Shown here: piece after piece, positions 26,896-31,138 of the stretch
How positions within the stretch are numbered: position 1 is the stretch's first letter
Layout of the letters: every line of letters starts with the position of its first letter
NCBI GenBank assembly: GCA_019448385.1
Contig: JAGTXO010000045.1
Location: forward strand, 1-64,000
Source of the DNA: Diacronema lutheri
Taxonomy: Eukaryota; Haptophyta; Pavlovophyceae; Pavlovales; Pavlovaceae
Direction: 5' to 3'
Length of the DNA stretch: 64,000 bases
Made by a program: the position numbers and the translations under genes
The notes under the pieces: generated by a model
The model's input: only the letters and a program-made list of their open reading frames with translations
What the model was told of the DNA's origin: nothing
Database searches by the model: none

Positions 26896-27408
26896 TTAAT
26901 CCGTGGAGCCCATGTTCCCGTCCTCGTCCTCCTCGAGCTCGACCAGGTGCGCAAAGTGCTTGCGGATGATCGTAGCATCGAGCGCGGAGCCCGCGAGGTG
27001 CAAATCCTCCAACGGGCACGCGCGCGCGAGCGCACGGATCGCGTCGAGGCCAAAGGAGCGCACGCACGCGATGTTGACGGCGCGCAGCTCGACACAGTTC
27101 GCGGCGAGCGCGCCGAGGGCCACGTCCGTGAGCAGCGCGCAGCCGCACAGGCTGAGCTCTCTCAAGTGCGGGCACGCGCGCGCGAGCGCCGCGACGCCGC
27201 AGTCGTCGAGGCTCGCGCGGAAGCGGTGAAGATCGAGGCGCGTCTCGGCGGCAAAGGCGCCGTCCATCCCGGCACGCCACGCCTTGCTGACGCGGCGGAG
27301 CCGCGCGCGCGTTGGCAGCTCGAGCCAGCGCCCGATGGCGCACAGGCCGTCCGCCGGCAGGTCGGCGGGCGCGCTCGAGTGCGATTCTCCATCGCCCTTC
27401 ATGATCAT
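26896..27408 (-). CDS. F-box / leucine-rich-repeat protein
   Basis: Single exon of 170 codons from ATG 27408 to TAA 26896. The N-terminal 'LPADGLCAIGRWLELPTRARL' and 'RRVSKAWRAG' is an F-box-like helix set (about residues 17-50), which in this family binds SKP1 of an SCF ubiquitin ligase. Then come about four cysteine-containing LRRs of the AMN1/FBXL type: 'CPHLRELSLCGCALLTDVAL', 'CVELRAVNIACVRSFGLDAI' and 'CPLEDLHLAGSALDATII', ending in an acidic tail. It is short for the family, so it may recognise a small substrate or be an AMN1-like protein. Its start codon is 38 bp from that of the divergent pyruvate carrier gene; a second in-frame ATG lies two codons in. Confidence 0.75.
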   Translation of the reverse strand: MIMKGDGESHSSAPADLPADGLCAIGRWLELPTRARLRRVSKAWRAGMDGAFAAETRLDLHRFRASLDDCGVAALARACPHLRELSLCGCALLTDVALGALAANCVELRAVNIACVRSFGLDAIRALARACPLEDLHLAGSALDATIIRKHFAHLVELEEDEDGNMGSTD

Positions 27409-27446: not shown

Positions 27447-28298
27447 ATGTCGCTCCTCCGCTGCCGACTCGGCCCCCTCGGGCGCGGCCGCCAGCCCGCA
27501 CTGGCGCTGTTTCGCCGGCGCTTTGCCTCGGAGGCCAAGGACGCGGCCGGTGCGGCCGGAAAGGACGGTGTGCGGGCGGCCGGCGCGTCCGCGCCCGCGG
27601 CGCCAGCGCCGGCAGTCGGCTGGTGGCACTCGGCGCAGTTTTGGGGCGGGATGGGCGCGCTCGCGGGCTGGGGGATGACCGGCTCGGCGATCTACGACGC
27701 GCAGTTTCACGGGCCGGAGGTGATCTCGCTTTCGATGACGCCGGTGATGATCGTCTACTCGTCACTCTTTGCGCGCTGGGCGTTCGTCGTCAAGCCGCAG
27801 AACCTGCTGCTCGCCGCGTGCCACGCGTCCAACGTGGTCGCGCAGTGCAACCAGCTGCGCCGCGCGATCGAGTACAAGCTGTCTCTCGGTGAGGAGGCGC
27901 GGGTGCGTGAGATGGGCGTCAAGGCTGCCGCCGGCGCCGCCGTCATCGGCGGCCTCGCCCTCGCGCGGCCGGTCCTGCAGCCGGCGGTTGTCGCGATGGG
28001 CATCCCGGGCGTTTCGTCGTTCGCCGCCGCGCCCGCCGGCCCGTTCACCGTGCACTTCTGGGCGCCCATGTCCAAGTGGCTGATCTCGGGCGCGTCCTTT
28101 TTCGACCTCAACCGGCCAACGGACAAGATCTCCATCGCCCAGTACACCGCGCTCACGTTGACGGGCACCTTCTTCACGCGGTATGCGCTCCTAGTCGTTC
28201 CCGTCAATTACCTCCTCTGCTCGGTCAACATTGCACTCTTCGCGTCGTCGGGCTGGCATCTCGGCCGCAAGGTGAAGGCTGATTACGTCGACAAGTGA
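27447..28298 (+). CDS. Fused mitochondrial pyruvate carrier, MPC1-like plus MPC2-like in one chain
   Basis: Intronless, 283 residues. Residues 1-30 ('MSLLRCRLGPLGRGR...') are a typical basic mitochondrial presequence. Residues about 62-146 match MPC1: 'QFWGGMGALAGWGM', 'GPEVISLSMT', 'YSSLFARWAFVVKPQN', 'ACHASNVVAQ'. Residues about 197-277 match MPC2: 'AGPFTVHFWAPMSKW', 'RPTDKISIAQYTAL', 'TGTFFTRYALLVVPVNY', 'SVNIALFASSG'. In animals, fungi and plants these are separate three-helix subunits that pair in the inner membrane to import pyruvate for the TCA cycle. The linker (about 147-196) contains a hydrophobic stretch ('AAAGAAVIGGLALARPVL') that could add a membrane helix and keep both halves in the same orientation. 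ATG at 27447 follows AATAAAA. Both halves are well conserved, so the gene looks functional. Confidence 0.9.
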   Translation: MSLLRCRLGPLGRGRQPALALFRRRFASEAKDAAGAAGKDGVRAAGASAPAAPAPAVGWWHSAQFWGGMGALAGWGMTGSAIYDAQFHGPEVISLSMTPVMIVYSSLFARWAFVVKPQNLLLAACHASNVVAQCNQLRRAIEYKLSLGEEARVREMGVKAAAGAAVIGGLALARPVLQPAVVAMGIPGVSSFAAAPAGPFTVHFWAPMSKWLISGASFFDLNRPTDKISIAQYTALTLTGTFFTRYALLVVPVNYLLCSVNIALFASSGWHLGRKVKADYVDK

Positions 28299-28670: not shown

Positions 28671-31138
28671 CTACCGGCCACCGGCCGGCAGCGCGGCCGC
28701 GCCGCCCGCCGCGCCAGCAGCAACCGGCGTCTCGCGCTCGCCATCGGTCGTCTGCCTGTTGAGCTGCTGCGCCGCGTCCGCCGGCGAGCCGCGCCTGCCT
28801 GCCTGCGTGAGCGGCGGAAGCCATCGTGTGAGGTAATTCATCCATGACAGTTTCGGCGTGAGCACAAGTGTCGACTTGCCCACTGTCATACTCAGCTCCT
28901 GTCCCCACGCGAGCTTGAGTGGCGAGCGGATCGGCGCGAAGGTGCCGCGGCTCGAGAGCGTGTCGTGCAGGATGAACTTGCCGCCCGTGTACCTGCGTGC
29001 ACGGTCGGGTGGACAACAGGGGCGGCCCCAAGGGAAGGGGGCGGGACAGGGCAGGGGCGGGTTTGCGAGGCGAGGGGGAAAGGGGGGGGGGGGGGGGGCG
29101 AGGGGATCCGCGCGCGCAGCGACGTGCGGCACGCGGCGAGCGCGCGGAGCAACACGGCGATGCCGGTGCGGCGCGCCGACCCTGCGCTGCCCGCGCATGG
29201 TGTGGTCGGGCACACGATGGGGGAGAACGACTGCGCGCGCGGCGCTGCTGCGTGGCGCTCACTCGATGCGTGCGTGCCTGCGCGAGACGGTGTGGTCCGG
29301 GATGACAATGTCGTTGTCCTCCATCTTGCCGATCGTCGCTGTGTTCCGCGCGGCGAAGGTGACCCACTGGCAGCGGCGTTGCCTGTGGTGTGACCAAAAG
29401 ACTTCAAGCAGGAGCGCGGGCGGCATCACAAGCTTCTCCTGCACGTCCGGCCGCAGGTCGCGCTTGCACGTCGGGCACTGCGCGGGCACGCGGCCCGAGC
29501 CCTGCGGCGACGACCACCGGCGCAAGCACGACAGGTGCACGTATTGAACCGAACCTCTGCACTCGCGGCACGCGCGCATGAGTGGGTCGGCGCGCGTGCC
29601 CGGCTGCGCGGCGAGGCGAGGCGCGGGCGACGGACGGCGACGCGAGCGGTCGGCGCGAGCGGCGTGCGGAGGGCGGGGGGTGGGGGGAAGGGGGAGGGGG
29701 GTGGGGGGAAAGGGGAAGGGGGGGGGGGGGGGCAGTTCGCTTTCAGCGGCGTGCGCGCGCGCCTGCGCGTGCCGCCGCGCAGGCAGCGGAGGCGAGGGCG
29801 GTTGAGGCGAGGGCGGCGCGGTGGAGCGAGCGGGCGTGCCAGGGCGGGCCAGGGCGGGGCGTGCCAGGGGCGAGGCGGGCCAGGGGCAGGACGGGGCGGG
29901 GCGGGGCATCGCGCGGCACCTCGTAGCAGAAGCAGCACTCGGCCGGGTCGCCGTCCGCCGTCATCACGTTGCCAAAGATGAGGCCGTCCGACGCTTCGCC
30001 CGCCTCTGCCTCCGCCGCGCCGCCCGCGCCCTCCTTGCCGCCCCCGCCTCCGCCCCCGCCTCCGCCTCCGCCTCCGCCTCCGCCGCCTACACCCGCGCCG
30101 CGTGCGCTCGTCAAGCCATCGTCAGAATCACACTCATCAGCAGACACCGGCCCGCCCGTCTCGGCGCGCGCGACCGCCGACTCGTCAAGCACGAGCTCGG
30201 CGCCGCCCGTTTCGTCCATGCCAAAGCCCGCGTAGCCCGCCGGGTCGATCGCGTGGTGTAGCACGCGCAGCACGACCACGTACCTTCGGCGGTGCGCGCG
30301 AACGGCGCGAGGCGACCATCGCGCGCGCGTGAGCGGCGCGAGCCTGGCGGCGTGCGCGCGCGGGCGCGCGCGGTCTCACGTGCGCTCTCGCACGGCACAG
30401 AGCGCGCGCGCACGTGTGCCCGATGCGGAAGCCATCGCCCGCCTGCAGGGGCCATGACATGCTCGTGGAACCGCGCTCGCCCAGCTGCACAAAGATGTCA
30501 CGCCTGCGGCTGGGCACGACGGTGGAGGCTGGCGTGTGGAAGGCGGGGCACGAGGCGAGCGGCGTGAACCAGAACGAGTGGTCGTACTGGTCGTAGTGGA
30601 TGCGCGCCTTCCACTGCGGCTGCGCGGCACGCGGAGCGGCGTAACGGCGGGCACGGCGCGTCGGAGCGTCGAGCGCTCGCGCGGGGCCGCGCGTTTCGCG
30701 CGGGTGCGTGCGCGTGCGGGCGCGCGCGCCGCGCGCGCGCCGCGCGGGGGCGCGCATGCGCGCTTGTTTGCGCGCGCGCAGCCGAGCACGCGCCGCGCGC
30801 GCATGCCCACGCCGCGCGGCGTGCGCCCGGCCACGCGGGCTGTGCGCGCATAAGGGCGAGCGGTCGGGCGCGCGCACCTGCGCCTGCGCGGGGTCATCCC
30901 CGTCGGTGCGCCCGACGGCGAGCTCGCTGCCACGTCCAGAGTCAGCCGACCACTCGCCGTGCGAGATCGAGCAGCTCGACGCCGACGCGACCATCAGCGC
31001 GCCGTGTTCGTCGACGCGGTACTCATGCGTGACCTCATTTTGCCGTGGCACGCGGTCCGACCGGCGGGTCGAGACCTTGACGGCGATCCAGCCGCTGTTG
31101 ATCCGGCGCGAGCGCTGTTTGCCGGCGTCGCCGCTCAT
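28671..31138 (-). CDS. RINGv (RING-CH) and FHA domain protein, putative E3 ubiquitin ligase
   Basis: Five exons join in phase: 31138-30878, 30619-30414, 30283-29920, 29603-29263, 28992-28671 (497 codons, all GT-AG). The N-terminal half is unrecognised ('WIAVKVSTRRS', 'WKARIHYDQYDHSFWF', 'DGFRIGHTYVVVLRVL'). A poly-Gly run encoded by CCGCCT-type repeats (30045-30090) follows. The RINGv spans exons 3-4: 'ECCFCYE', then 'ADPLMRACRECRGSVQYVHL', 'SCLRRWSS' and 'CPTCKRD'. The third and fourth cysteines are spaced C-x2-C, not the usual C-x-C. Then comes an FHA domain: 'TIGKMEDNDIVIPDHTVSRR', 'HARIEY', 'GKFILHDTLSSRGTF'. RINGv proteins are usually membrane E3 ligases, but no membrane helix is visible here; the FHA would bind phosphothreonine and could direct ubiquitylation to phosphorylated targets. 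The last exon may continue past this stop. Confidence 0.8.

Follow-up and report, generated by a model that had tools for sequence, protein, structure and literature searches.

In the haptophyte Diacronema lutheri a nuclear gene very probably encodes MPC1 and MPC2, the two partners of the pyruvate carrier, as one polypeptide with a hydrophobic linker, which would work as a single-chain 1:1 carrier. Positions are given in the window, by which we mean the whole stretch of 64,000 nucleotides that was analysed. It has long been debated whether the two MPC subunits combine 1:1 and whether they sit the same way in the membrane. A fusion found in nature, in a genome that apparently has no other MPC gene, provides evolutionary evidence for the 1:1 carrier, and parallel halves would also be supported if the crossing linker is confirmed.

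An MPC1-class and an MPC2-class half in one open frame

The gene (Table 1) consists of 283 codons and is open when read with the standard code; stop codons in the same frame lie just 5' of the ATG. The Pfam family PF03650 (MPC) matched twice within the translated protein, with an E-value of 5.9e-46 and 155.6 bits for the whole, and when the halves were taken separately residues 1-153 scored 64.2 bits and residues 154-283 scored 95.4 bits (cut-off 27). At E ≤ 1 no Pfam family other than PF03650 was listed, either for the whole protein or for its two halves, and the SWEET domain MtN3/saliva (PF03083) was not among the matches at this threshold. Against all PDB chain sequences (E ≤ 0.1), residues 1-153 gave four distinct matches, all of them MPC1 or MPC1L (best E 6e-15). 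Residues 154-283 gave ten matches, the best six being MPC2 (60-62 bits) and the remaining four MPC1 or MPC1L (21-28 bits). Over the aligned fragments, half 1 is identical to human MPC1 at 37/81 positions, to MPC1L at 36/80 and to MPC2 at 17/73, while half 2 is identical to MPC2 at 32/78, to MPC1 at 22/81 and to MPC1L at 24/80; between the two halves the identity is 17/85. From the PDB matches and the pairwise identities together it follows that the halves belong to different MPC classes, and by its sequence the chain is an MPC1-class unit followed by an MPC2-class unit.

This order was first proposed in a sequence-only reading of the DNA on the basis of short motifs (FWGG..GWG, PEVISLSMT and CHASN, then VHFWAPMSKW, DKISIAQ and SVN), all of which are present in that succession, and it is borne out by the double Pfam match, the PDB matches and the identities. 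The same reading had named a best match of both halves to one MPC class as evidence that would count against it; what was found is a best match to MPC1 for half 1 and to MPC2 for half 2.

Table 1. Features of the fused MPC gene (positions in the window; residues are those of the 283-residue protein)
Feature	Positions	Strand	Remarks
Fused MPC1-MPC2 gene	27447..28298	+	single ATG..TGA frame, 283 aa, Pfam MPC twice
Presequence-like N-terminus, residues 1-30	27447..27536	+	from charges; targeting inferred
MPC1-class half, Pfam match residues 64-150	27636..27896	+	H126 (= human MPC1L H86), Y104, F108
GT..AG segment, 78 nt, phase 0	27903..27980	+	possible in-frame intron, yet coding-like
Putative crossing (inversion) helix H4, residues 157-182	27915..27992	+	from hydropathy
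Residues 183-190, first part of the uncharged connection from putative H4 to the MPC2 half	27993..28016	+	
MPC2-class half, Pfam match residues 191-281	28017..28289	+	K210 (= human MPC2 K49), N261 (= N100), F243 (= W82)

The residues of the transport site are largely conserved. The essential pair that handles pyruvate and protons, a histidine in MPC1 and a lysine in MPC2, is retained as H126 and K210. Two passages of PMC12007569, which we pooled, yield 13 pocket residues, namely S35, L38, Y64, F68, F71, L82 and H86 of MPC1L and K49, T78, W82, L96, N100 and Y85 of MPC2; nine of these are identical in the D. lutheri protein and four are changed (S35 to G, L38 to M, F71 to W and W82 to F). The inter-subunit salt bridge E51-K66 and the cis-prolines P77 and P91 are retained as well. 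In the passages on inhibition in PMC12007569, W82 of human MPC2 is required for the binding of three inhibitor classes, and since it corresponds to F243 here, the inhibitor response of the fused protein may differ. As aligned, helix H1 of the MPC1 half (27636-27710) carries a three-residue insertion after FW, and beside this insertion the conserved H1 proline, P32 of MPC1L, is replaced by A71.

The N-terminal 30 residues hold seven K/R and one D/E and end in RRRFASEA, and no ER-type hydrophobic signal was seen in their hydropathy. From this composition the stretch looks like a mitochondrial presequence.

Two open frames on the minus strand flank the gene. The first, at 26896-27408, is divergent and of 170 aa, and has weak F-box/LRR similarity (four families, all under the Pfam cut-offs). 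Its start is separated from the MPC start codon by 38 bases, so that, if both starts are right, the two genes would have a very short promoter region in common. The second, at 29259-29909, matches a RING-variant (RINGv) domain and the initial portion of an FHA domain. Both matches exceed the Pfam cut-offs, and this gene may extend into another exon.

The linker and the alternative readings of the locus

According to the structural account in PMC12007569, the human MPC is a 1:1 dimer in which each subunit has three transmembrane helices preceded by an amphipathic helix at the N-terminus, both subunits having the N-terminus in the intermembrane space and the C-terminus in the matrix; the same account notes that other topologies were proposed in earlier studies. 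If both subunits are indeed N-out and C-in, the link between two tandem units must cross the membrane once. The Kyte-Doolittle hydropathy of the linker (19-residue windows, step 2, over residues 155-199) was 1.13-1.56 with one dip to 0.91, and compared with the accepted helices of the same protein residues 157-182 appear hydrophobic enough for a crossing, the hydrophobicity sums of the linker, which are uncalibrated, lying above some accepted MPC helices and below others. The connection before putative H4 (residues 136-160) contains six K/R and four D/E, and the connection after it (residues 183-204) contains neither K/R nor D/E; such a charge-rich segment at 136-160 would be as expected for the matrix side. 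Since the putative helix includes R174, P175, Q178 and P179, it may be kinked or not transmembrane. AlphaFold2 models from the single sequence had a mean pLDDT of 38.5 and 35.3 and were too poor for a reading of topology. The hydrophobic stretch at about residues 157-182 would suit the crossing and give a putative SWEET-like 3+1+3 plan, and to this extent the comparison with SWEETs that had been made from the sequence alone agrees with the hydropathy.

The gene had also been described as one intronless frame. The single open frame stands, with no stop codon between the MPC1 and MPC2 halves, while its being intronless is likely rather than certain, given an in-frame 78-nt GT..AG segment (27903-27980) whose splice score falls within the range of called introns. 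Were this segment an intron, the halves would remain joined in one frame, but most of the putative linker helix would be deleted, leaving a short mature linker without a full crossing helix. We consider this unlikely. The segment is of phase 0 and, at 11.7 bits, outscores every other in-frame candidate in the frame under the stricter splice model (11.6 bits and rank tenth under a looser one); called introns can also be about as short, one of them having only 74 nt. For the splice model, 24 exon-exon pairs of chaperonin (PF00118) genes were used, 23 of which yielded a candidate intron and one none, and introns with a GT donor and a good fit of profile positions were picked by hand, 14 of the 23 for the splice model and 10 for the coding model, the doubtful ones being dropped. 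Leave-one-out scores of these 14 ranged from -1.2 to 20.2, with five below 11.7 and nine above, in a model that is small and somewhat self-selected and in which the two introns that score below zero when left out may be wrong. Ten open frames of carriers and chaperonins were given as controls, three of which were without a candidate (no upstream ATG was located); in the seven that could be scored, some of which may hold real introns or be truncated, the best in-frame candidates reached 7.1-20.8 and exceeded 11.7 in five, so the splice score cannot decide on the segment. Composition argues against an intron. With a coding model built from 38 of 60 chaperonin and carrier loci (L007-L066), the segment scored +0.47 bits per codon in favour of coding as against intron, compared with a mean of 0.75 in the 199 exon blocks and of -0.68 in the 87 intron blocks, the latter overlapping and read in three phases and hence not independent; scores this low occur in 21% of the exon blocks, and scores this high in 1% of the intron blocks. 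Its G+C content is 0.54 at codon position 2 versus 0.92 at position 3 (Fisher p 0.004). Moreover, after splicing about 16 hydrophobic residues would be available to make the membrane passage required by the reported topology. Residues 157-199 scored 0.16 bits per codon (lowest 7% of exon blocks, reached by 2% of intron blocks) and residues 179-199 scored 0.04 (lowest 3% of exon blocks, again reached by 2% of intron blocks), so that by these measures the linker reads as coding, its outer part less clearly.

Three further explanations bear on whether a single chain is made and how it arose. The locus might yield separate MPC1 and MPC2 through an internal promoter, an internal start (M156 or M183) or proteolysis of the linker, which we regard as quite unlikely: internal methionines are present and human MPC1 and MPC2 are separate proteins, but there is no stop between the halves, the linker is coding-like and the presequence-like stretch would serve the first half only. 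There is very little probability that two neighbouring genes were joined artificially during sequencing or assembly. Although the reading draws on one assembly and chance open frames are common in this G+C-rich genome (seven of the 14 called introns are free of stops in all three forward frames), one frame of coding composition runs through both halves and the linker, the published assembly is described in the relevant part of PMC8379373 as having about x315 PacBio coverage, and the same architecture has been reported in other proteins (PMC7176098). For those 7-helix MPC proteins, the corresponding passage of PMC7176098 prefers duplication of a 4-helix precursor and leaves fusion possible. A recent intragenic duplication, as opposed to the joining of MPC1 and MPC2, is nonetheless highly improbable as the source of the D. 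lutheri halves, each of which shares more with its human class (37/81 and 32/78 identical) than the two share with each other (17/85); these identities favour the joining of two already distinct classes.

The introns called in the chaperonin genes have features of their own. Of the 14 (from L007, L008, L011, L016, L020, L023, L028 and others), eight start with GTGCG and eight end with GCGCGCAG, and their G+C content is up to 89%, unlike the usual pyrimidine-rich intron end.

Known relatives and a proposed mechanism

The sequence-only reading implied that the fusion was new, and this has to be given up, since 7-helix proteins made of an MPC1-like and an MPC2-like part have been in print since 2020. 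In the section concerned, Medrano-Soto et al. 2020 (PMC7176098) state that there are "several" 7-helix MPC proteins of the 3+1+3 type and name one, UniProt C5K6B0 (TC 2.A.105.1.8). In this protein helices 1-3 have their best alignment to an MPC1 homologue (46.7%), and for the last three helices the best is to an MPC2 homologue (55.3%). Compared by description, the D. lutheri gene has the same plan and the same order, that is, one chain with the MPC1-like part before the MPC2-like part and an extra central helix, the latter being putative here. We take C5K6B0 to be from the alveolate Perkinsus marinus and thus probably from an organism other than D. lutheri. The word "Perkinsus" is absent from the main text of PMC7176098. 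No haptophyte MPC fusion was found among the matches listed by title or start of the abstract in the open-licence literature, and the word "fusion" does not occur in the main text of an MPC review (PMC10909473) or of a biochemical paper (PMC6517818). The fusion architecture is already known, and what is added here, as far as the sequence tells, seems to be its occurrence as the apparent sole MPC gene of a long-read genome.

The MPC1 and MPC2 proteins of animals and yeast (SLC54, PF03650) are of the same family and the same classes, with the nine pocket residues noted above in common. They differ in being two separate proteins, whereas the D. lutheri protein is one chain with phenylalanine in place of W82 and with the H1 insertion in its MPC1 half; furthermore, the place of the amphipathic helix of human MPC2 is taken by the hydrophobic linker. 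SWEETs (PF03083), which consist of two three-helix units and an inversion helix, and the bacterial SemiSWEETs offer another comparison. The putative 3+1+3 plan of the D. lutheri protein would be shared, but its halves are of MPC classes and match PF03650 only, which makes the likeness an analogous or repeated step and not membership of the SWEET family.

From the gene we infer expression, targeting, topology and transport along the following lines. The N-terminal presequence would direct the fused chain to mitochondria, where the MPC1 half would form three helices in the inner membrane and a fourth helix would return from the matrix to the intermembrane space, so that the MPC2 half would be inserted in the same orientation as a separate MPC2. 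Packed together within one chain, the two halves could make up a 1:1 dimer of pseudo-twofold symmetry in which H126 and K210 would be the site for proton and pyruvate, and pyruvate would be imported with protons through the usual alternating-access cycle. It is reasonable to suppose that covalent fusion would remove the stoichiometry problem, as the sequence-only reading had suggested.

The MPC complement of the genome

The genome searched comprises 43,492,796 bases (43.49 Mb) in 103 contigs. A search for separate MPC1 and MPC2 genes, which the earlier reading had called for, returned none: at E ≤ 10, PF03650 had no match beyond the two halves of the fused gene, and fragments of human MPC1 and MPC2 found the fused gene alone. 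With the whole 283-residue protein there were four matches, the gene itself and three others that are weak and short (E 0.04 to 1.8, 29-36% identity) and that we attribute to chance. As a positive control, a chaperonin profile search recovered intron-split genes exon by exon, with 38 matches, the shortest covering 39 profile positions (E 4.7e-11), and for mitochondrial carriers there were at least 155 matches (150 of 213 candidates scored). BUSCO values given for the published D. lutheri NIVA-4/92 assembly in the pertinent part of PMC8379373 are 80.8% complete, 6.3% fragmented and 12.9% missing. The missing sequence might therefore harbour a separate MPC gene, whose absence from the genome is likely, though not proven. 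Relatives of the fused protein were also sought with the whole protein and the queries A2 and A3, and none were present in the contig collections, which hold viruses, bacteria and archaea, so that this empty result says nothing about other algae.

A wider proposal can be made, which we hold to be somewhat better than evenly balanced: in this haptophyte lineage the obligate heterodimer would have been permanently replaced by a monomeric 3+1+3 chain, with no second pyruvate carrier of the family in the cell. The step from SemiSWEET to SWEET would thereby have been taken again, this time in mitochondria, and it may have happened independently of the earlier case. Joining of this type would then be shown outside the SWEET family. 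The surprise is limited by the published architecture, while a fusion as apparent sole gene makes the single-chain carrier testable and offers transport and structural studies a single polypeptide that is ready to use and free of the problem of non-functional homodimers.

The carrier search also brought out two contigs, C87 (about 107-109 kb; L041/L065) and C88 (about 35-37 kb; L042/L066), with parallel sets of mitochondrial-carrier matches. Five of the six corresponding pairs are equal in score and in one the match is shorter in C87, and it is likely that the two represent a duplicated segment or an unmerged haplotype.
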